Positions 29,336 to 40,419 of a DNA stretch of 64,000 nucleotides are shown here, one piece after another. The stretch is from contig NZ_FOLO01000014.1 in the NCBI RefSeq assembly GCF_900112265.1, positions 1 to 64,000 of the forward strand, in the 5' to 3' direction. The position numbers were made by a program, and so were the translations under genes. Below the pieces are notes generated by a model. It was given only the letters and a program-made list of their open reading frames with translations. It was not told where the DNA came from and ran no database searches. The number at the start of each line of letters is the position of its first letter. Position 1 is the stretch's first letter. Source of the stretch: Pseudoalteromonas denitrificans DSM 6059 (lineage in GTDB: Bacteria; Pseudomonadota; Gammaproteobacteria; Enterobacterales; Alteromonadaceae).

Positions 29336-32227
29336 CTAAAATTTGTAGTTAATACCTAAGTAATATTGTCGACCAAAACTTTTGTACTCACCTAATAAGG
29401 AATCAACACCATAATTGGCGACATTTGCTTCGTCTGTTAAGTTATTACCTTGTAAAACAGCTGTAACTCCATTTTCAAAATCATATGATGCTTGCATATC
29501 AACTGTTGTATATTCTTTTGATTTAATCGGTGTATTACTACCAGGAATAGCCATATTAATCACAAAATCATCTCTGTATCTCACATTTATATGTGTACTG
29601 AAATTATCTATGTCCCAAAATATAGTTGTGCTCCACACATTTTTTGATAAACCAGGCAAGTCCATCTTTTCCCCAAATAAGTTTCCGCCAGAAATTTCAG
29701 CTTCACTTTCAGTGTAAGAATAACTTGCAGTTAGACCTAAACCAGAAAAAACCCCAGGTAACTGTTCAAATGTTTGTGTTAATGCAAGTTCTAATCCTCT
29801 TATATATCCACCTTTATCACTATTTTGTTTAGTATAATAGTCACCTTTAACAAAACCTTCGGGGATCTCTATACCCACCCATTCATCATCAGGTCCATAA
29901 GCTGCATCTTCAACTAATGTATCTATGTCTTTCCAAAACAGCGCGACTGTTACAGCACCATTATCTTCAAAGTAATGTTCGTAAGATAAGTCAAATTGAT
30001 TTGCCATAAATGGTTTGATAAAAGGTGAACCCTTAGACCAAACATTATATTCATCTCCGTCTACACCGGAAACCCAAGAACCCGCCCCCCCTTTCAATTG
30101 ACCAGCAGGTGGACGACCCATTACTTTTGCAGCAGCAAAACGTAACATATCTTGATCAGTCATTTCTAAGTTTAAATTTAAAGAAGGTAAAACATCAGTA
30201 TCTTTAGGACCATACTTAATGTGATCATAATTAGTACTTGTCACACCCACATCGTCTGTCATTTCAACACCTAAACCAGTGCCCACATTTTGAATGCCAC
30301 TGGCTTTAACATCAGACTTTACAACACGAACACCAAAGTTACCGGTCAATGCAAGCCCTTGAACTTCTGTTTCAATATTTGCCATTAAATAATATGCAAA
30401 TACTTTTTCTTCTAATTTACCAGATTCGATAAAGGTCCAGTCACGACTAAACACCTGTTTTCCCTGATAGTTTCCCGCACCAAATATACTGTCAGCCAAT
30501 CCATTTAAATCTACTACAAGGTGATCAGGCGCACCATTAACTGAACCTATCGATGAAAATCCAGCAACAGATTGAGGCTCACAGGCCAATGTAGGAGAAC
30601 TACTTAAATTATCAGCACACCAAGACTCCCAATTACCTTGTGCATTTACAGTATTAAACTGACCATCTCTACTACCATATAAAAAAGTGCCCCTATTTGA
30701 ATCAAATGTGCGTTTTGAATAACGTATACCCGTTTCAATTGAAGATATAAATCCTGAGTCTAGGCTGTATTTAAAATCTACTTTTAAACTATCTATATCA
30801 TCTAAATATTCATGAGGATATTCTTCATATCGCGATAACCTCATTAAGTTAGTATCTGTCAGATCAGTATTAAGTCCAAGAGTAGGTGTACCATCACCAT
30901 TACTCATATATTGCATTATTTGCCCAGAAAGCTCTTGCCAAGTTTCTCCGGTTACACTTTGTCCATTTTCATTTAAACCCGTTGCACTACCAAATTCATA
31001 AGCATGAAGAGATGCTAGGCGATCTTTTCTAGTCGTTTTCCCTTCACTATGTGCTATATCAACTTTTAAGTTCGCATTATCAGTAATTTGCCAATCTATA
31101 TTCAAACCAATTGCATCAGAGTCTGCCTGTATTGATTGATCTTCAGAGCGCGTTTCAAACCAAGGACTAGAATCATTACGTGTATTTGGGTTTGTTAGCC
31201 CTATTGTTGCACCGATTAAAGAGCCATTTACAATATTAGGATCTGTAATAGAAAAAAGGTCTGTATCACTGCCCAAACCACCAATAGTGACACCATGGCG
31301 AAGATCTTCAGACTCATATTCAGATTTAAAATAATCTAACTGCGCCTTAAAATTATCGTGTGGTTGATAAACCAATGTGGCTAAATATCCATTACGAATA
31401 TCGGTTCCTGCACCTGCTTGATACTGTAAGGCTCTCACTCTAGTTTCTTCAGTTCCATCACCATTAACATCATCCTTCTGATAGCCAATTTGACCATCTG
31501 CCCCAGCACGAGCACCTTCAAAATTATTAGGTTGATCTAATCTTGAATAACCAAGACCTAAACCTAATGTTTCATCTAAAAATTTACCTTGATATGAGAA
31601 ACTTATTTTATGACCATTTTCATCGGCACCCACATCTTTCGCAGCATCATTAAATGACGCTCGATAACTCGCAGTAAAGTTATTGTCTTTTTCAGCTTGC
31701 AAAGGGTTGGCTGTTTTTAATTCAACGGTTGCTGCAACCCCACCTTCAATATGAGACGCTTTCGGTGATTTAAAAACGGCTGCTTCAGTGATTAATTCTG
31801 CAGGATATTGGTCAAATGCCATCCAACGACTACTTTCTGTTCGTCCACTGGTACTCGCTTGCTCACGTCCGTTCAATGTTGTTTGAATAAAGTCGCCATT
31901 CATACCACGAATATTTAATTGTGAAGATTGCCCTGACTCACGAACAGTCGTCACACCAGATACTCGCCCAAGTGCATCTGCAATAGAAGCATCAGGTAAA
32001 ACACCTAAATCACCAGAACCAATGAAATCGCCAACGACATCTGCATTTCTTTTGGTGTCTAATGCCTTAATAATACTAGACCTCACACCTCGCACTTCAA
32101 TTACTTCAACTTCTTTTGCTGCGGCTTCTTTTTCTTTTTTAGTTTCTTCCACTGCATAAGCAGAAAATGAACCAACTCCAGCACTTAATAATGCGAGTGT
32201 TAATATACTTGGCTTGAAAACTGACAT
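29336..32227 (-). CDS. TonB-dependent outer-membrane receptor, probably for maltodextrins
   Basis: Outer-membrane beta-barrel of about 963 residues with a signal peptide (start MSVFKPSILTLALLSAG, cleavage after AYA), a TonB-box-like VEVIEVRGVR, a plug domain with LPDASIADALGRVSGV and a C-terminal aromatic-ending strand (YLGINYKF). The pattern is the large receptor class of Xanthomonas, Caulobacter and Alteromonadales often used for oligosaccharides. The divergent GH13 alpha-glucosidase and shared palindromes in the spacer suggest a starch/maltodextrin substrate, an inference from context. ATG at 32225-32227 has GGGGT six bases upstream; an ATG at 32248 is an alternative. Confidence 0.9.
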   Translation of the reverse strand: MSVFKPSILTLALLSAGVGSFSAYAVEETKKEKEAAAKEVEVIEVRGVRSSIIKALDTKRNADVVGDFIGSGDLGVLPDASIADALGRVSGVTTVRESGQSSQLNIRGMNGDFIQTTLNGREQASTSGRTESSRWMAFDQYPAELITEAAVFKSPKASHIEGGVAATVELKTANPLQAEKDNNFTASYRASFNDAAKDVGADENGHKISFSYQGKFLDETLGLGLGYSRLDQPNNFEGARAGADGQIGYQKDDVNGDGTEETRVRALQYQAGAGTDIRNGYLATLVYQPHDNFKAQLDYFKSEYESEDLRHGVTIGGLGSDTDLFSITDPNIVNGSLIGATIGLTNPNTRNDSSPWFETRSEDQSIQADSDAIGLNIDWQITDNANLKVDIAHSEGKTTRKDRLASLHAYEFGSATGLNENGQSVTGETWQELSGQIMQYMSNGDGTPTLGLNTDLTDTNLMRLSRYEEYPHEYLDDIDSLKVDFKYSLDSGFISSIETGIRYSKRTFDSNRGTFLYGSRDGQFNTVNAQGNWESWCADNLSSSPTLACEPQSVAGFSSIGSVNGAPDHLVVDLNGLADSIFGAGNYQGKQVFSRDWTFIESGKLEEKVFAYYLMANIETEVQGLALTGNFGVRVVKSDVKASGIQNVGTGLGVEMTDDVGVTSTNYDHIKYGPKDTDVLPSLNLNLEMTDQDMLRFAAAKVMGRPPAGQLKGGAGSWVSGVDGDEYNVWSKGSPFIKPFMANQFDLSYEHYFEDNGAVTVALFWKDIDTLVEDAAYGPDDEWVGIEIPEGFVKGDYYTKQNSDKGGYIRGLELALTQTFEQLPGVFSGLGLTASYSYTESEAEISGGNLFGEKMDLPGLSKNVWSTTIFWDIDNFSTHINVRYRDDFVINMAIPGSNTPIKSKEYTTVDMQASYDFENGVTAVLQGNNLTDEANVANYGVDSLLGEYKSFGRQYYLGINYKF

Positions 32228-32287
32228 GTTGTTACCCCGATTAACCATTTATTAGTTCCAATTTCAGTGCGGTATATACGTGAGCAT

Positions 32288-32871: not shown

Positions 32872-32940
32872 TTTATCAAAATCGCAATGACTAAAATAAA
32901 GACCTTATATATGTGTAATAAATAAGGTATGGAGAAAAGT

Positions 32941-34557
32941 ATGGCTAAGCATAATTGGTGGCAAGGAGCCGTTATATATCAAATATATCCTCGCAGTTTT
33001 CAAGATACCAATAATGATGGAATTGGCGATATTCCAGGAATTATAAACCGCTTAGACTACATAAAAAGCTTAGGCGTAGATGCAATTTGGGTTTCTCCTT
33101 TTTTCAAATCTCCAATGAAGGACTTTGGTTACGATATTAGTGATTACCGTGATATCGATCCTATATTTGGCAACATTGCAGATTTTGACCGTTTAATCGA
33201 GCAAGCGCATCAACGCAATATTAAAATAATCATTGATCAAGTTCTCAGCCATACATCAGACCAACATGCTTGGTTTAATGAAAGCAGGCAAAGTCTTATT
33301 AACAATAAATCTGACTGGTATGTATGGGCCGATGCCAAACAAGATGGTACAGCGCCTAATAACTGGTTATCAATTTTTGGTGGACCAGCTTGGCATTGGG
33401 AGCCCCGTCGTAAGCAATATTACCTGCATAATTTTTTAACTGAGCAACCTGATTTAAATTTTCATAATCCCGAAGTACGGGCTCATGTTTTAGATAACAT
33501 TGAATTTTGGCTTAAAAAAGGTGTTGATGGCTTTAGGTTAGATGCCATTAATTTTTGTTTTCACGATGAAAAGCTACGCGATAACCCTGCAAAGCCCGAA
33601 AAAAAACGAGAAGGTCGTGGTTTTAGTGAAGATAACCCTTATGCATTCCAATATCACTATTACAATAATACACAACCTGAAAATCTTGATTTCATGAAAG
33701 AGATACGTACATTATTAAATCAGTACCCAGGTACAGTGTCTTTAGGTGAAATATCCTCAGAGGATTCATTAGCGACCATGGCCCAATACACGGCCGATGA
33801 AGATAAACTGCATATGGGTTATAGTTTTGAATTATTAACCGATGACTATAGCGCTAGATATATTCGTGAAACGGTGCAATGCCTTGAATCTCAAATGCTT
33901 GAAGGTTGGCCTTGCTGGGCATTTAGTAATCATGATGTAACAAGAGTTGCATCACGGTGGAGCAAAAATGGTGTTAACTCTGAACAAGTAAAAATGCTAA
34001 CCGCATTACTTGCATCCCTCAGAGGCAGTGTTTGCATGTATCAAGGTGAAGAGCTTGGTTTAGGAGAAGCAGAGGTTAATTTTGAAGACTTACAAGACCC
34101 ATATGGCATTACATTTTGGCCAAACTTCAAAGGCAGAGATGGGTGTAGAACACCTATGCCATGGACAAATCAGTTAAACGGTAGTTTTTCATCAAACAAA
34201 CCATGGCTACCTTTAGCCGACGATCATTTAGAAAAATGCATCAGTACTCAAGAGCTATCAAGTGACTCGATATTAAACGCATATCGCGAATTTTTAACTT
34301 GGCGTAAAATTTATCCTGCATTAGTGACAGGAAACATTGAATTTATTGATACTCCAGAGCCTATATTAGCTTTTTGGCGACATACTAATGCACAAAAAAT
34401 ACTCTGCTGTTTTAACTTAAGTGATGCTGTTGCAGAGTTTAAAATGCCCAATGCACTTAATAGCACCCCATTATCCCCTTTGACGCATAACAAAGGCCAA
34501 TACCAAGCAAATAAAATCACGCTTCCCGGTTTTAGTTGCTTTTATGCTATGAGTTAA
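32941..34557 (+). CDS. Alpha-glucosidase, glycoside hydrolase family 13
   Basis: Alpha-amylase-superfamily enzyme of 538 residues, resembling GH13 subfamily 23 oligo-1,6-/alpha-1,4-glucosidases of marine proteobacteria. Catalytic motifs in order: DQVLSHTSDQH (region I), GFRLDAINF with the nucleophile Asp (II), SLGEISSED with the acid/base Glu (III) and AFSNHDVTR with the transition-state Asp (IV). No signal peptide is seen, so it acts in the cytoplasm. ATG at 32941 follows GGAG by six bases and is preferred to the ATG at 32929. The divergent TonB receptor and common palindromes suggest joint control by a maltose-type regulator. Confidence 0.92.
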   Translation: MAKHNWWQGAVIYQIYPRSFQDTNNDGIGDIPGIINRLDYIKSLGVDAIWVSPFFKSPMKDFGYDISDYRDIDPIFGNIADFDRLIEQAHQRNIKIIIDQVLSHTSDQHAWFNESRQSLINNKSDWYVWADAKQDGTAPNNWLSIFGGPAWHWEPRRKQYYLHNFLTEQPDLNFHNPEVRAHVLDNIEFWLKKGVDGFRLDAINFCFHDEKLRDNPAKPEKKREGRGFSEDNPYAFQYHYYNNTQPENLDFMKEIRTLLNQYPGTVSLGEISSEDSLATMAQYTADEDKLHMGYSFELLTDDYSARYIRETVQCLESQMLEGWPCWAFSNHDVTRVASRWSKNGVNSEQVKMLTALLASLRGSVCMYQGEELGLGEAEVNFEDLQDPYGITFWPNFKGRDGCRTPMPWTNQLNGSFSSNKPWLPLADDHLEKCISTQELSSDSILNAYREFLTWRKIYPALVTGNIEFIDTPEPILAFWRHTNAQKILCCFNLSDAVAEFKMPNALNSTPLSPLTHNKGQYQANKITLPGFSCFYAMS

Positions 34558-34572
34558 ATTTCAATCCCTGCG

Positions 34573-34597
34573 AAGGTGAGCCAAGCTCACCTTTTTT
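34573..34597 (+). terminator. Rho-independent terminator after the GH13 gene
   Basis: AAGGTGAGC (34573-34581) pairs with GCTCACCTT (34585-34593) around CAA and ends in six T, 16 bp past the stop. Confidence 0.9.
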
Positions 34598-34732
34598 ATT
34601 TTCACAACAACGATTATTATATTTTGGAAAAATAAAATATCCTTTAAGCCTTTATAAGAAGCAAAGGTGGCTCACTAATATAATACTTTATGATATTATA
34701 CTTAGCTGTTTATTGAATTGAATTATCATGTT

Positions 34733-35803
34733 ATGGCTGAAAATCTAAATACGTCTGAATATCATGCAATCTTTTATATTGCATACCCCTATTATTTTCC
34801 TCATTTTTTACCCATTCATGAATACTTTAAACAACAAGGTAAAAATACGTTATTTATTTTATCCACAAAACAAAACTCTGAACTAATGGAAAAAATAGCC
34901 TCTGAAGAGCAATTAGATTTTGTATTTGGAAAAGATAATTTATTTAAATATAAAGCTGATGCTTTTTTCTTTGCAAAAAACACGGATTCAACAAAAGGTA
35001 TTCAGGGTAAGACCCTATTTTTTGATCATGGTGTTGGTACAAAATACTGCAATTATCAGAAGGCCTGTGAATTATTTGACTATGTTATTATTGAAGGTAC
35101 TTACCGAGTTGAAATGCTACAAAAAGAGTTACCTCAATTTCAACATAAAATAAAGTGTTTAGGATTTAGTAAGCTTGACCCTATGGTTAATGATAACTCA
35201 GATAATAAACATGAAATGCTAAAAAAATATAATTTAGACCCGAATAAAAAAACAATATTATATGCCCCAACATTTTTTCCATCTTCCATTGAAAAAATGA
35301 GCAGACATTTCACTGAAGATTTTTCTGAGTTTAATGTCATTATAAAACCACATTATTTATCTTTAGAAAGAAAAGCATATAAAAACCAACAAAAACTATT
35401 TAAACATTGGGCTTTATCAAATAATTGTTATATCCCGGATGTTTCTCAGTACAACTTAACTAAATTTATCAGTTTAGCGGATGTTATGATAAGCGATGAA
35501 TCATCCGCTATTTTTGAATGCGTCGCATTAGATAAGCCTGTGATCATTAATCGTTTTTTAAAGTTACGCTGGTCGTATTATTTAAACCCTAAAAAGCTTA
35601 TAAAGCGACTTGATCAAGGTATAGAGGTGTATCGTCGTGTCGGCTACAATCCAAAGTCCTATGATGCAATGAAAAACGATGTCATTTGCGCACTTGAAAA
35701 TCCGAAAGAACACCAAAAATTACGCGCAGAAGTAACAAGTTCAATTTGTGGTATTGTGGACGGAAAAGTATCGCAACGCATTTTTGAACTCATTTATTCA
35801 TAA
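34733..35803 (+). CDS. CDP-glycerol glycerophosphotransferase-like protein
   Basis: GT-B-fold transferase (356 residues) of the CDP-glycerol:poly(glycerophosphate) glycerophosphotransferase family, whose members move polyol-phosphate groups from CDP donors onto surface polymers. Landmarks are FFDHGVGTKY near residue 95 (the conserved His-Gly) and ISDESSAIFECVALDKPVI near residue 250 (the Asp-x-x-Ser donor-site motif). A TTG at 34718 opens the frame, but ATG at 34733 is preferred. It is followed after 12 bp by an aminotransferase and then a nucleotidyltransferase, forming an apparent operon. A donor other than CDP-glycerol is possible given these partners. Confidence 0.82.
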   Translation: MAENLNTSEYHAIFYIAYPYYFPHFLPIHEYFKQQGKNTLFILSTKQNSELMEKIASEEQLDFVFGKDNLFKYKADAFFFAKNTDSTKGIQGKTLFFDHGVGTKYCNYQKACELFDYVIIEGTYRVEMLQKELPQFQHKIKCLGFSKLDPMVNDNSDNKHEMLKKYNLDPNKKTILYAPTFFPSSIEKMSRHFTEDFSEFNVIIKPHYLSLERKAYKNQQKLFKHWALSNNCYIPDVSQYNLTKFISLADVMISDESSAIFECVALDKPVIINRFLKLRWSYYLNPKKLIKRLDQGIEVYRRVGYNPKSYDAMKNDVICALENPKEHQKLRAEVTSSICGIVDGKVSQRIFELIYS

Positions 35804-35815
35804 AGTGATTAAAAT

Positions 35816-36895
35816 ATGAAACAAAATAAACTAATTTTTACCCCTGGTCCCGTAAAGGAATTTCCAGAAACAAATGCTATTGGTGGACAACAAACCCCTT
35901 ACTTTCGTAACGATGAATTTTCTCAGGTGATGTTAGAGTCTGAAAAAATGCTTTTAGCATTAGTAAATGCACCGCAAAATAGTAAAGTAATTACTTTAAC
36001 AGCCTCAGGTACTGCCGCGATGGAAGCTGCTGTACTTAATTTAGTATCCGTTGAAGATAAAACTTTAAGTATCGTTTCAGGTGGATTTGGACAACGTTTT
36101 TCAGACATTTGTAAAATTCATCAACGGGAGTGTCAGAGTTACCACCCTCAACAAGATGACGATTTAACCAATACTGATGTTTTATTACCCCATAAAGATA
36201 ATGATATTTTATTGATCAACGCACATGAAACAACAATTTGCCATCAATTTAATTTAACTCAAATAGGTCAATTTTGTAAAAAGAATGATTTGCTTCATAT
36301 TGTAGATGGCATTTCAGCTTTCCTCACAGATCCCTTAGACATGCAATTACATAATATTGATGCATTAATTGTGAGTTCTCAAAAAGGGTTAGCACTGCCT
36401 CCTGGTCTTGCAATGATAATTTTAACCCCTAAAGCAATTGATAAAATAATTCCAGAGCCTGCAACACTGTATTTTAAGTTTTCGGATTATTTAACGAATG
36501 CACAAAGAGGGCAAACACCCTATACTCCCGCAGTTTCAATCATTTTACAAATGCATCAAAGGTTAAAAAGTATCATTAAACAAGGTGGTATTGACTCTGC
36601 AATATCACATACTCAATCAATCGCACAATTTTTTAGAAATGGTATCAAAAACTTACCTTTAGCATTATATTCAAAGCATATGCCTAATAGTGTTACTGCA
36701 CTCATTACAACAAACGGCCAACATGCAGGAGAACTTGTCGCAGATATTGAAAGTAAATATCAAATAGTGCTATGCCCAAATGGTGGCGCACTATCAAAAA
36801 CCGTCTTTCGCGTTTCTCATATGGGCAATATAACACGTGAAGATACACAAAAATTACTTAATGTTTTACATGATTATTATGGAATAAACGTATGA
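35816..36895 (+). CDS. PLP-dependent class V aminotransferase (PhnW/AGXT-like)
   Basis: Fold-type I aminotransferase (359 residues) of the alanine-glyoxylate / 2-aminoethylphosphonate-pyruvate transaminase family. N-terminal FTPGPVKEF, the glycine-rich ASGTAAMEA (63-71), D164 in IVDGISAF for the pyridine nitrogen, and the Schiff-base K190 in VSSQKGLALPPG are all present. Genomic partners (CDP-alcohol-type transferase and LicC-like nucleotidyltransferase) suggest it makes an amino-alkyl compound for activation and attachment to a glycan. No PEP mutase or phosphonopyruvate decarboxylase is nearby, so 2-aminoethylphosphonate is not proven. Its stop overlaps the next start by four bases (ATGA). 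Confidence 0.85.
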   Translation: MKQNKLIFTPGPVKEFPETNAIGGQQTPYFRNDEFSQVMLESEKMLLALVNAPQNSKVITLTASGTAAMEAAVLNLVSVEDKTLSIVSGGFGQRFSDICKIHQRECQSYHPQQDDDLTNTDVLLPHKDNDILLINAHETTICHQFNLTQIGQFCKKNDLLHIVDGISAFLTDPLDMQLHNIDALIVSSQKGLALPPGLAMIILTPKAIDKIIPEPATLYFKFSDYLTNAQRGQTPYTPAVSIILQMHQRLKSIIKQGGIDSAISHTQSIAQFFRNGIKNLPLALYSKHMPNSVTALITTNGQHAGELVADIESKYQIVLCPNGGALSKTVFRVSHMGNITREDTQKLLNVLHDYYGINV

Positions 36896-37596
36896 AAGTT
36901 ATAATTATGGCTGCAGGTGTTGGCAGCCGAATAAGCCGACACTTAAAAGATCATCCAAAATGCTGTGTTGATATTAATGGCAAACCTCTGATCCAACATA
37001 CAATGGAGCTATTAAATAGCCAAGGCATAACTGATATTGCCATAATTTCAGGATATCACGATGACTATTTACAAAATGTTTTAAAGGACTTTGAATATAA
37101 ACGTATTTTTAACCCTTTTTTCAGAGTCACTAATTCTTTAGCTTCTTTATGGTTTGCCCAAGAGTTTTTAGACTCTGACGAGGATGTTATATTTATGAAT
37201 GGTGATGTATTTTTTGAAAAGGAAATACTCGATATTTTAAAAGAAACCGAGTTATCGCCACTCATGTTAGCTGACTCAACACGTATTGAAGATGCTGATT
37301 ATCGCTTTACATGGCAAGATAATAAACTAACTGCTTTTGGTAAAGAACTGACAAATGCACAAACGACTGGAGAATATGTTGGTATTGGTAAATTTAATGC
37401 CTTAGATGCAAAAAAACTGATCACAAAAGTGAACTCTTTAGTTAATTCAGAGCAATACAATATGTGGTGGGAAGATGCGATATATCGCCAAATAGACAAT
37501 GGCCAGATAATACACATTCATGATGTAAAAGGTTATTTTTGGGCAGAAGTCGATTATATAGAAGATTATGAACGCATAATAGCTTATTTAGCTTAA
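36892..37596 (+). CDS. LicC/PntC-like nucleotidyltransferase
   Basis: Nucleotidyltransferase (234 residues) of the phosphocholine/aminoethylphosphonate cytidylyltransferase type. The N-terminal signature MAAGVGSRISRHLKDHPKC binds the NTP; MNGDVFFEKE near residue 103 and WWEDAIYR near residue 191 supply metal-binding acids. It is translationally coupled to the aminotransferase through an ATGA overlap, so the two most likely act in succession: transamination, then activation to a CDP- or CMP-linked amine. The adjoining transferase would then use that donor. CTP is the expected but unproven nucleotide. Confidence 0.82.
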   Translation: MKVIIMAAGVGSRISRHLKDHPKCCVDINGKPLIQHTMELLNSQGITDIAIISGYHDDYLQNVLKDFEYKRIFNPFFRVTNSLASLWFAQEFLDSDEDVIFMNGDVFFEKEILDILKETELSPLMLADSTRIEDADYRFTWQDNKLTAFGKELTNAQTTGEYVGIGKFNALDAKKLITKVNSLVNSEQYNMWWEDAIYRQIDNGQIIHIHDVKGYFWAEVDYIEDYERIIAYLA

Positions 37597-37615
37597 TTTT
37601 CAGCTCATTATCGAA

Positions 37616-37644
37616 GTAAAGCTGATTTGAAAAATCAGCTTTAC
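37616..37644. terminator. Hairpin between convergent polymer genes, likely terminator
   Basis: GTAAAGCTGATTT (37616-37628) and AAATCAGCTTTAC (37632-37644) form a perfect 13-bp stem with a GAA loop between the nucleotidyltransferase and the convergent second transferase. There is no clear T-tract. Confidence 0.55.
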
Positions 37645-37679
37645 AATAAACACTCTAATAAAAACCCTGTATTCTTCAA

Positions 37680-38726
37680 CTACCAAAACTTCCAATAATT
37701 AAGCTTTTTACGCATTTTGAATTGACGTAATATATCTATTGACTTTGCCTTTACAGGTTTACTTTCTTCAAGCACTTCATCTATTGCATCCAGCACTCTA
37801 TAAGACGAGTTTGCATCATTATATGGATGAGTATGATCTATAAAAGTTTGTATCTTATCCATTAATCTAGAGGGGCGTAATAATGCATTTTCAATCGAAC
37901 TTTCAAGTACTTCAGGGTCATTGATATCAATTAAATAGTCATCCGGTGAAATATTATTAAAGGTCACTACAGGCTTATGTAGCAATAAAAACATAATTAA
38001 AACAGAAGATGTATCACATACCATAACATCAGCTTGCTGTAATAAAGGTATCACATCATCCGTTTCAATAAACTCTAAATGCTCATTTTGAATTGACTTA
38101 TACTTTTCTACAACCTCTAGAGACATTTTAGGATGAAATTGTACAAGCCAGCGCCACTTTCCTGTTTGACTAAGCTGTTTAACTTTTTCAAATAAATGAG
38201 GCGCACATGATAATTTTTTTGAAAATGTAGAACATAATAAAATCGTTTTTTTACCTTTATTATTAACCATATTATTTAATTGAAATAAAGGGTCTAACGC
38301 ACTCCAACCTGTTTCTTTAACTTTGAAGGATTGATGATTTTTTTCTAATTCTAAAAACGCTGCTGTTGATTCAGGCCCTTGAGTACAATATAAATCAAAG
38401 CAATTTCTGACTTTATAATGATCGTTATTACCTTTTTTATCTAGCTTTCCCGCATCAAAACCATGAAAAATTGCAACATTAATACCAGGTAAAAATGTTG
38501 GTGCTATATTAGCGGGGTATAAAACAGCAAGGGGATCAAACTTTTTTATTTCATCAACACATTGGAGCCTTTTTTCGTTCTTATTAAAATACTCTAATGA
38601 AATATCTCTTCCCATTACAAACCAAGCAACCTCTCCCCCTCTTTCAACAATAGCAGCTTGAATGGGTCTTAAAATAGCGAAACTATAATTTTTAGAAATA
38701 TAAAAAAGGTAACGTTTTGAAGGCAT
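37680..38726 (-). CDS. Second CDP-glycerol glycerophosphotransferase-like protein
   Basis: GT-B-type protein (348 residues) related in outline to the gene at 34733 but clearly diverged. It has AIFHGFDAG near residue 88 (conserved His-Gly), LLCSTFSKK near 165 and CDTSSVLIMFLLLHKPVV near 240 (the donor-site Asp-x-Ser-Ser motif). It is transcribed towards the three-gene operon. Two such transferases around one activation pathway could mean primer and polymer steps, or two acceptor sites on a surface glycan. No signal peptide or membrane segment was seen, so it acts at the cytoplasmic face. Confidence 0.78.
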   Translation of the reverse strand: MPSKRYLFYISKNYSFAILRPIQAAIVERGGEVAWFVMGRDISLEYFNKNEKRLQCVDEIKKFDPLAVLYPANIAPTFLPGINVAIFHGFDAGKLDKKGNNDHYKVRNCFDLYCTQGPESTAAFLELEKNHQSFKVKETGWSALDPLFQLNNMVNNKGKKTILLCSTFSKKLSCAPHLFEKVKQLSQTGKWRWLVQFHPKMSLEVVEKYKSIQNEHLEFIETDDVIPLLQQADVMVCDTSSVLIMFLLLHKPVVTFNNISPDDYLIDINDPEVLESSIENALLRPSRLMDKIQTFIDHTHPYNDANSSYRVLDAIDEVLEESKPVKAKSIDILRQFKMRKKLNYWKFW

Positions 38727-39129
38727 GCTATATATTTTATAAAATAGAAAAGGACTAAAATTTTACCATTTATCAAATAAAAAAAACAAGTCGATATATT
38801 TCTCTGAAAACGAAAAAAACCATCTTAAAGTATTGTATATTACCAATCTGTGAGTATGGGATTAACAAATTAAAATTTTATAAAAAATATTGTATTACCC
38901 AGCTTAATCGATACATCTGACACTCACCCTTTTTATAACAAGCATTTTAATTAAAATAATAACTCACAAAAAAGTGATGATTCTCCCGTTCTGAAATAGA
39001 CCCTGCAGCGCATCAAGGGGAAATTCTCAGTATAGTCAGAAATATCATTTTTAGTTTCAAACTAATTATTGTTAGTTACAAGGTAAAACGTACCTTATTC
39101 TTAGATACGTTTTATTTTCAGTTTAAGGC
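38727..39129. other. Intergenic region with a terminator-like hairpin
   Basis: About 400 bp with no gene visible. AAAACGTA (39085-39092) and TACGTTTT (39106-39113) can pair and end in T on the minus strand, a plausible terminator for the permease. The rest must include the promoter of the second transferase. I see nothing else definite in it. Confidence 0.5.
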
Positions 39130-40419
39130 CTACAAGAATGCAAACTTACTAATAAACATTACAGTCAAAATCCAAACACTTATGCTTACCTCATTTTTTT
39201 TACCACATAATACTTTTGCTGCTGTATAGGAAATAAAACCCAGTGCAATACCATTGGCAATTGAAAAAGTAAGTGGCGTCATAAGTAATACAACACATAC
39301 AGGAATCGCATCCGTCATATCATCCCAATTAACTAATTTTAAATTAGATAACATGAGTACTGATACATATAAAATAGCACCGGCTGTTGCATATGCAGGC
39401 ACCATAGCCGCAAGTGGCGCTAAAAATAGCATTAATAAAAAACAAATACCAACTACAACAGCGGTTAGTCCTGTTTTACCACCAACCGATACTCCTGCAA
39501 CAGACTCTATGTAGGAAGTTGTTGTAGAAGTACCCAACATACTACCCGCTATCGTTGCAGTACTATCCGCACTTAATGCTTTCCCTAAGCGTGGAATATT
39601 CCCCTTTTTATCGGTTAAACCCGCTTTTTGTGTTACCGCAACTAAAGTGCCTGAGGTATCAAATAAATCAACAAACAAAAACGCAAATATTACACTAAGC
39701 ATAGAGATATCAAATGCAGCTGCTAAATCAAACTGCATAAAAGTAGGTATTAATGAAGGAGGCATAGATACAATACCTTGATATTCAACTAACCCCGATA
39801 TTACGGCAATAAATGTGACAATAAAAATGCTAAATAAAACACCGCTTTTAATATCTCTATGAATTAATGCAACTATCACAAAAAAACTTAGAATAGCCAA
39901 TAAAGGTCCAGCCGATGATAAATCCCCTAATTGAACAAATGTAGCAGGACTCGCAATAATAATACCCGAATTTTTAAGTGCTATTAATGCCAAAAAAGCA
40001 CCTATCCCTGTCGCAATAGCTTGCTTTAGTACCATAGGAATTGCATTAATAATCCACTCTCGAACTTTGAAAAGGCTTAATAACAAAAAAATACAGCCTG
40101 AAATAAATACAGCACCTAAAGCAGACTCCCATGAATAACCCATACCTAAAACAACACCATACGTAAAAAAAGCATTTAATCCCATACCTGGTGCTAAAGC
40201 CAATGGATAGTTTGCCCAAAAACCCATAATAAAACAGCCAATTGCTGCCGCAATACAAGTGGCAACAAAGGCCGCACCTTGATCCATTCCAGCTTCAGCC
40301 AACATCGCAGGGTTAACAAAAACAATATAAACCATCGTAATAAATGTTGTCAGACCTGCAATTAATTCTCTTGGTATATTAGAGCCTTGTGATTTAACTT
40401 TAAAAATTCTTTCAATCAT
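39130..40419 (-). CDS. NCS2 purine permease, AzgA-like
   Basis: Inner-membrane proton-coupled nucleobase transporter of the NCS2 family, azgA-like branch (adenine, guanine, hypoxanthine), 429 residues. Family landmarks are the N-terminal EIIAGLTTFITMVYIVFVNP-like stretch, ANYPLALAPGMGLNAFF near residue 70, FLFVDLFDTSGTLVAV near 250 and GTSTTTSYIESVAGVSVGG near 298. About a dozen hydrophobic segments are visible. It is a monocistronic unit; no purine riboswitch or PurR palindrome was recognised upstream. Confidence 0.9.
   Translation of the reverse strand: MIERIFKVKSQGSNIPRELIAGLTTFITMVYIVFVNPAMLAEAGMDQGAAFVATCIAAAIGCFIMGFWANYPLALAPGMGLNAFFTYGVVLGMGYSWESALGAVFISGCIFLLLSLFKVREWIINAIPMVLKQAIATGIGAFLALIALKNSGIIIASPATFVQLGDLSSAGPLLAILSFFVIVALIHRDIKSGVLFSIFIVTFIAVISGLVEYQGIVSMPPSLIPTFMQFDLAAAFDISMLSVIFAFLFVDLFDTSGTLVAVTQKAGLTDKKGNIPRLGKALSADSTATIAGSMLGTSTTTSYIESVAGVSVGGKTGLTAVVVGICFLLMLFLAPLAAMVPAYATAGAILYVSVLMLSNLKLVNWDDMTDAIPVCVVLLMTPLTFSIANGIALGFISYTAAKVLCGKKNEVSISVWILTVMFISKFAFL

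Follow-up and report, generated by a model that had tools for sequence, protein, structure and literature searches.

A cassette of four genes (34733-38726) in the window, the stretch of 64,000 nucleotides of Pseudoalteromonas denitrificans DSM 6059 analysed here (contig NZ_FOLO01000014.1, positions 1 to 64,000 of the forward strand), very probably attaches an amine-bearing glycerol phosphate to a surface sugar, as judged from comparison of sequences, gene neighbourhoods and trees. The product is predicted with good confidence to be an amino-glycerol phosphate of some kind, and it is rather probable that this would be a phosphoserinol decoration made from dihydroxyacetone phosphate (DHAP) through serinol phosphate and cytidine diphosphate (CDP)-serinol. 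In the proposed route, a class V pyridoxal phosphate (PLP) aminotransferase (AT) would convert DHAP and an amino acid to serinol phosphate (2-amino-2-deoxyglycerol phosphate), a LicC-like cytidylyltransferase (NT) would join this to cytidine triphosphate (CTP) to give CDP-serinol, the aminated analogue of CDP-glycerol, and one or both of two CDP-glycerol-type phosphotransferases (GT1 and GT2) would pass phosphoserinol to a surface glycan, perhaps the lipopolysaccharide (LPS) core or O-chain. The original prediction had proposed transamination, activation with CTP and transfer, and this logic now has strong support from conservation that spans phyla and from the swap of cassettes seen among congeners; among the substrates it offered, DHAP leading to a serinol-type group fared best, and DHAP as the acceptor of the amino group, the amine at C2 (hence serinol), the CDP product and the acceptor glycan are what we infer.

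GT1 (34733-35803, plus strand; Pfam PF04464 Glyphos_transf, 2.7e-21), AT (35816-36895, plus strand; Aminotran_5, 1.9e-16) and NT (36892-37596, plus strand; NTP_transf_3, the MobA/LicC-like nucleoside triphosphate transferase family, 4.5e-12) lie in tandem, AT and NT sharing an ATGA overlap at 36892-36895, and GT2 (37680-38726, minus strand; PF04464, 5.5e-9) is convergent with them. The top Pfam match of each of the four proteins was above the curated cut-off (for PF04464, 76.4 bits for GT1 and 35.9 bits for GT2 against a gathering cut-off of 22.1), and both the coupled trio and the second transferase facing it, as first read from the sequence, are thus confirmed by coordinates and by Pfam. For GT1 an alternative in-frame TTG start lies upstream at 34718, and the ATG start was judged reasonable. 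The arrangement is not a chance one, because an uncultured Shewanella (L043) has its genes in the same order, GT1-AT-NT, with identities of 63% (GT1), 62% (AT) and 72% (NT); there it stands amid LPS-core-type genes (a heptosyltransferase family protein, GT25 and a 3-deoxy-D-manno-oct-2-ulosonic acid (Kdo) transferase, by Pfam), and near genes that we take, from inspection of their sequences, to be coaD, mutM and rml genes.

At the same chromosomal site, related species were found to carry TagD-type genes in place of AT and NT. GT1 homologues were present in 13 of 59 relatives at 31-39% identity; in nine of these, analysed with narrow flanks, an open reading frame (ORF) labelled TagD stood next to GT1 in eight and none did in G005. 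Wide flanks were examined in eight of the 13, and the window's site, bounded by a GH13 alpha-amylase family enzyme (32929-34557, plus strand; Pfam Alpha-amylase) and a Xan_ur_permease family transporter (39130-40419, minus strand; PF00860), both outside the pathway, was recovered in four (G002, G016, G017 and G003; GH13 72-86%, permease 81-91% identity), GT1 being elsewhere in the other four. Between these flanks all four relatives have homologues of GT1 (34-37%) and GT2 (41-56%), no AT and no NT, and TagD-type genes instead; in the window no TagD-type gene lies between GH13 and permease. The TagD proteins of G002 and G017 are 54% and 50% identical to Bacillus subtilis TagD, G016 (L192 5984-7025) has a TagD-like gene with a short-chain dehydrogenase, and G003 (L195 4892-6433) has a TagD-like cytidylyltransferase beside a protein from the glycerol-1-phosphate dehydrogenase family. 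This last dehydrogenase scored 242 bits, under the cut-off of 413, and its solved matches were led by the 'glycerol dehydrogenase' 3ce9 (4.2e-44), followed by glycerol-1-phosphate dehydrogenases from 6.8e-32; the G003 site possibly encodes a CDP-activated sn-glycerol-1-phosphate in a bacterium. Homologous transferases at one site are accompanied either by TagD-type genes or by AT and NT, and the small-molecule modules therefore appear interchangeable; with TagD replaced by AT and NT beside such transferases, the donor should therefore be an aminated CDP-glycerol. If the transferases still act on a donor resembling CDP-glycerol, its aminated form should come from AT, with DHAP as the obvious ketone and serinol phosphate as the product. 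The locus would then be one at which related species exchange surface-phosphate chemistry, in the manner of serotype variation.

The pairing of AT with a CTP-dependent enzyme is found across phyla. Relatives of AT were collected from class-level genomes, plasmids and GTDB contigs: at E 1e-30 the class-level search gave them in 5 of 368 other genomes, including G070, a control for the 2-aminoethylphosphonate (AEP) pathway, an initial contig scan with the single AT protein confirmed no relative, and the GTDB contigs gave 578, of which the best 80 were kept, the counts describing these nearest members. By record titles and tree labels, many of them of metagenome-assembled genomes (MAGs), the family extends over Pseudomonadota, Campylobacterota, Myxococcota, Bacillota, Fusobacteriota, Bacteroidota, Spirochaetota, Verrucomicrobiota and Methanobacteriota. 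ORFs were called in 88 AT loci and labelled by profile search (at least 40 bits against single reference proteins), and 84 loci were countable after removal of the AEP control L042 and of L091, L095 and L100, in which no AT ORF was labelled. A CTP-transferase lay within three genes of AT in 77 of the 84 loci, directly adjacent in 71; it was TagD-like in 59 and LicC-like in 20, a count that may include a few unrelated sugar nucleotidyltransferases, with both kinds in 2. In 64/84 loci a transferase recognised as LicD or CDP-glycerol-type stood within five genes of AT, LicD being the commonest transferase next to other members of the family, and PEP (phosphoenolpyruvate) mutase or phosphonopyruvate decarboxylase was near AT in one locus of the 84 (L083). 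On the AT tree, whose bootstrap had not settled, a minimum of three switches between TagD-like and LicC-like partners is required. A LicC-like nucleotidyltransferase with 26% identity to NT was also seen in a cluster of the Cobetia phage Carin-5 (L037); genes close to it carry the annotations glycosyltransferase, glycerol-3-phosphate dehydrogenase and glycerophosphodiesterase.

Most of the TagD-like partners are long proteins, with a Gfo/Idh domain fused on in 3/3 cases checked by Pfam. When 57 fusions, picked by label and length (>=380 aa) and including L035 10100-11374 and L038 10502-11836, were aligned, the lysine of the Gfo/Idh EKP motif was missing in 56, and because of this loss the Gfo/Idh half is probably no working dehydrogenase, the fusion being probably a widespread pseudo-dehydrogenase. 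In the one member compared with solved chains, that of Ruminococcus albus, the TagD domain was closest to TagD (9.4e-38) and TarD (1.1e-36), and far more weakly matched the enzymes for ethanolamine (2.1e-17) and choline (4e-11) and the phosphonate enzyme Fom1 (3.2e-4).

AT itself belongs to a clade distinct from the characterised references. Its best NCBIfam match was PhnW-AepZ TIGR03301 at 149.7 bits, under the cut-off of 360.8, and TIGR02326 gave 96.4 bits, under 400.8; the nearest solved chain was 3f0h (7.2e-85), deposited as 'Aminotransferase' with no stated function. Lys190, invariant in 7/7 rows of the family profile A2, is presumed to be the PLP lysine. Two trees were used, tree 1 by maximum likelihood with 55 rows (one gene being in twice, as L042 and L033), and tree 2 with 60 rows, from which the duplicate and six family rows were omitted and which held 10 of 14 mycoplasma ATs, several trimmed to the matched stretch. 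In tree 1, 40 family rows including window AT and 3f0h formed one supported group (100/98) and five PhnW/AepZ references a separate one (100/100), in agreement with tree 2, and neither group took in the references for BhcA/serine-glyoxylate or the two other AT matches of the host; in tree 2, BhcA, SGAT and 6pk1 made up their own group (100/100), which did not hold AT. A placement of the aminotransferase within serine-glyoxylate metabolism, which would have spoken against the predicted pathway, was thus not found. In the tree 3f0h stood nearest to the members from R. albus and R. flavefaciens, which are partnered by the TagD-Gfo/Idh fusion. Searched with AT, the 59 relatives (35 of the same genus) gave matches of at most 32% identity, and at most 27% where the alignment exceeded 300 residues; the cassette is therefore regarded as accessory. 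In one relative (L053 6633-9062) an aminotransferase is in frame with an N-terminal part of about 450 aa that weakly matches UPF0227.

NT is closest among solved chains to LicC 1jyk (1.1e-15) and to PntC-AEPT 6pd1 (2.7e-12). In an alignment that covered one PepM-linked reference (L127) in part and had LicC one column out (a second alignment has it in register, with Asp), Asn103 (NT numbering) was found in 19/19 AT-linked NTs and in 0/8 references (six PepM-linked, LicC and PntC), and WWE192-194, ending at the PntC Glu196 position, likewise in 19/19. Asn103 falls at the LicC D105 position and at Glu104 of Tde-PntC, and Glu194 at Glu196. According to the accessible part of the PntC report, the Glu104 position adjoins the substrate amine (PMC6697681). 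On these residues the AT-linked NTs are judged a coherent subfamily, neither standard LicC nor standard PntC. A sugar-nucleotide function was rejected for NT (NCBIfam sugar-family matches were far under their cut-offs), and the alternative that it is such an enzyme with no link to the transferases did not hold up, since it is tied to AT in many genomes. A phosphocholine (LicC) function was likewise rejected, given the lack of the acidic ligand and of choline genes in the cassette; for LicB and LicA (choline uptake and kinase), no extra gene is present between GH13 and permease, and no genome-wide search was made.

Homologues of both transferases accompany AT in other genomes. In a Sulfurovum (L065), which has a TagD/IDH-AT arrangement, a GT1 homologue (56%) lies four ORFs and a GT2 homologue (39%) seven ORFs downstream of AT; further GT2 homologues near AT were found in L066 (34%), L107 (31%) and a Bacteroides (L036, 31%, next to AT). 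No solved relative of GT1 was found by sequence at E 0.01.

A parallel was seen in mycoplasmas. GGPL-I is reported to carry phosphocholine alone, and MfGL-II phosphocholine together with phospho-2-amino-1,3-propanediol, in the accessible portion of the source (PMC3403081); with this extra phosphoserinol, a second transferase and an aminotransferase are what the second lipid would need. The NCBIfam model Mf1, the transferase of Mycoplasma fermentans phosphocholine glycolipids (cut-off 225 bits), was exceeded in 3 of 395 genomes of the class-level draw, and profile A2 matched all of these as well as one further, weaker genome, at a distance of 55-780 bp from the Mf1-type gene. In three of these four genomes the AT formed part of a fused NT-AT protein (601-612 aa); in one, NT and AT were separate genes. 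In the genus of G630, Mf1 was over cut-off in 20 of 61 genomes, and in a count over 20 Mf1 genomes (G568 lying outside the 61) AT was present (>170 bits) in 12/12 with at least two Mf1-type matches (E 1e-20) and in 0/8 with one, although one of these eight had a 19.5-bit AT fragment. The second Mf1 copies of G876 and G878 were under the 225-bit cut-off, that of G876 having two in-frame TAG codons. Such a split has a chance of 1/125970 under independent genomes, which related species are not. NT and AT are fused at 12 of the 14 mycoplasma AT loci, and at 8 of the 14 a recognised LicD lies within 1.5 kb on either side; the NTs have Glu or Asp at the window's Asn position in 13/13, and PEP mutase was found in 0/21 mycoplasma genomes. 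Orthology of these ATs with that of the window was unsupported by tree 2, and the mycoplasma case reads as convergent logic, not orthology. Four loci (L142, L144, L145 and L147) with NT-AT fusions, or separate NT and AT genes, near Mf1-type LicD genes are candidates for making the serinol-phosphate arm of MfGL-II, and the same proteins are possibly related to two additional domains in M. penetrans methionyl-tRNA synthetase (MetRS), which is described as having nucleotidyltransferase-like and aminotransferase domains in the accessible text of its report (PMC13215547).

Amination of DHAP has precedent: Campylobacter jejuni Cj1437 is reported to convert DHAP to (S)-serinol phosphate, which is then amidated onto glucuronate (PMC11800397), and human PSAT1 with DHAP to give, very slowly, a compound of serinol phosphate mass (PMC9283133), both as stated in the accessible parts of these papers. 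Several observations nevertheless weigh against the DHAP-to-phosphoserinol pathway. DHAP activity in the AT family is a prediction; Cj1437 is, as we take it, of a different aminotransferase class from AT, and characterised class V relatives mostly use aldehydes or 2-keto acids. NT has Asn103 where LicC and PntC have the acidic amine ligand. Of the 84 AT loci, 7 lacked a CTP enzyme in the three-gene range and 20 lacked a recognised transferase in the five-gene range, the congener GT1 proteins are only 34-37% identical to that of the window, and the G003 cytidylyltransferase, the least TagD-like of the four, was nearest to an ethanolamine-phosphate enzyme (3.3e-18), narrowly ahead of TagD (4.9e-17), with Fom1 at 6.4e-14. 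PEP mutase was over cut-off in 4 of 39 other AT-family genomes. As to the mycoplasmas, their ATs formed a separate clade grouped with the M. penetrans MetRS domain (tree 2), the one NT tested was nearest LicC (1.2e-25) and could make CDP-choline, M. fermentans itself was not identified among the genomes compared, and AT was sought only in Mf1 genomes and not in the genus's 41 without Mf1.

The same pathway with another amino-alcohol, AT acting on glyceraldehyde 3-phosphate (giving 3-amino-1,2-propanediol phosphate) or on glycolaldehyde phosphate (giving phosphoethanolamine), is possible though distinctly less likely. The frequent use of aldehydes by class V relatives and the G003 cytidylyltransferase suit it, and TagD-like and CDP-glycerol-type partners would suit any C3 amino-glycerol phosphate, but the 2-amino isomer is the one natural in MfGL-II, the known DHAP aminotransferase yields serinol phosphate, and phosphoethanolamine would leave unexplained the closeness of the R. 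albus TagD domain to glycerol-3-phosphate cytidylyltransferases. An order in which NT makes CDP-dihydroxyacetone and AT then aminates the CDP-linked ketone is improbable: gene order does not fix reaction order, and the Gfo/Idh domain fused to TagD elsewhere might oxidise CDP-glycerol, but with the EKP lysine lost in all but one of the fusions that domain looks like a pseudo-dehydrogenase, an oxidation step by it was not relied on, and the final decoration would be identical anyway.

An AEP decoration, with AT as AEP aminotransferase, NT as PntC and phosphonoacetaldehyde made elsewhere, is very unlikely. PhnW-AepZ is the best NCBIfam match of AT, NT resembles PntC 6pd1, and domains PF12804 and PF01467 are both described, in the accessible text, as common in phosphonate clusters (PMC6697681); yet AT is under the PhnW/AepZ cut-offs and outside their clade, NT has Asn at PntC Glu104, and TagD-type genes occupy the same site in congeners. 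The host genome (130 contigs, 100% completeness) gave three matches to the PEP-mutase model TIGR02320, none over cut-off, and when these loci were translated in six frames KRCGH was seen in two and EDKxxxxxNS in none. The former is, we assume, a motif of the isocitrate-lyase group, and the latter was used as the PEP-mutase motif. The absence of PEP mutase, noted at first for this stretch, thus extends to the searched host genome, and the phosphonoacetaldehyde option of the original prediction is effectively excluded by the missing mutase together with the trees. The 39 other carriers (35 genomes of the 80 best loci and four G-numbered genomes, with plasmid carriers L034-L036 not included) are mostly MAGs or drafts; neither G093, a single 100%-complete contig, nor L073, on a record titled complete genome, had a mutase match. 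In the four mutase-bearing genomes the mutase-decarboxylase cluster has Fe-ADH (three) or a DegT-type aminotransferase (one), and at L083/L126 an AT-TagD/IDH-LicD module stands beside a phosphonate cluster with its own nucleotidyltransferase and Fe-ADH; the AEP control G070, outside the 39, was also over the cut-off. An EDKxxxxxNS motif in L053 was set aside as chance, the 781-aa ORF being unmatched by the PEP-mutase reference and the genome having no TIGR02320 match. As a general substrate route the AEP pathway is rejected on the PEP-mutase searches, the trees and the NT residues. Nor is it at all likely that AT serves a serine-glyoxylate or other central pathway beside an NT acting on sugar nucleotides, with no joint function: all four genes come from large promiscuous superfamilies, but AT and a CTP enzyme keep company in 77/84 loci of many phyla, NT-AT fusions exist in mycoplasmas, AT lies outside the BhcA/SGAT references, and the 59 relatives give only weak AT matches.

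A terminator-like hairpin between GH13 and GT1 (34572-34594) is weak evidence, such sites numbering 4 in the window against 2.2 +/- 1.4 in shuffled sequence; promoter-like sites were at chance level, an Rfam scan of 34400-39300 gave no match, and the cassette DNA gave none in Escherichia coli genomes. A TonB-dependent receptor (29336-32248) adjoins GH13 on the opposite strand and is probably part of a separate sugar-use locus.

A broader proposal, on which we are evenly divided, is that CDP-serinol is an undescribed and widespread activated donor, made by a dedicated AT clade together with a LicC-like or TagD/pseudo-dehydrogenase enzyme across eight or more phyla, some of them counted on MAG titles alone and with archaea among them, and with mycoplasmas using NT-AT fusions in parallel for the serinol-phosphate arm of a glycolipid. 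The literature searched, outside which most subscription journals lie so that novelty is not proven, held nothing on CDP-serinol and nothing joining GGPL-III to an aminotransferase. Among the papers listed on serinol phosphate and aminotransferases none showed a CTP route by its title, CDP-aminoglycerol and related terms returned the C. jejuni work only, 'phosphoserinol' returned biotechnology only, and aminotransferase, LicD, cytidylyltransferase and CDP-glycerol jointly gave coenzyme A work only. In a review of glycans from marine bacteria (PMC3210612), glycerophosphate is given as a component in Pseudoalteromonas, and 'propanediol' is absent from the accessible text. The prediction of a new activated building block would give the 3f0h aminotransferase family a testable function; if true, it would place a positive charge on an anionic phosphate, yielding a zwitterionic glycan, which bears on phage and immune recognition.

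Compared with known systems, the cassette resembles the C. jejuni Cj1437/Cj1438C/Cj1435 serinol amidation in its proposed formation of (S)-serinol phosphate from DHAP by transamination; there, however, the serinol phosphate is dephosphorylated and held by an amide bond, and the accessible text mentions no CTP activation. With M. fermentans MfGL-II/GGPL-III it would share the phospho-2-amino-1,3-propanediol group, and Mf1-bearing mycoplasmas have NT-AT genes, but these are mostly fused, their ATs form a separate clade, the acceptor is a lipid and phosphocholine is added as well. The Lic-1 pathway (LicA, LicB, LicC and LicD) offers a LicC-like NT and the LicD found beside other AT-family members, whereas here an aminotransferase replaces choline uptake and kinase and NT has Asn at the LicC acidic position. 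The Pnt pathway (PEP mutase, Ppd, AEP transaminase, PntC and a LicD-like enzyme) likewise combines an aminotransferase, an enzyme of LicC/PntC fold and a phosphotransferase; unlike it, the cassette is without PEP mutase, its AT is outside the PhnW/AepZ clade and its NT has Asn for Glu104. The CDP-glycerol pathway (TagD and a glycerophosphotransferase, as in the G002 and G017 alleles) shares with the cassette the GT1 and GT2 homologues, the locus and activation by CTP, but in the window TagD is missing and AT with the LicC-like enzyme stands in its place. We accordingly place the cassette, by comparison of sequences, as a predicted further member of the decorations built from CDP-activated phospho-alcohols (as in teichoic-type glycerol, Lic and Pnt), one in which a distinct and widespread AT clade would be central.

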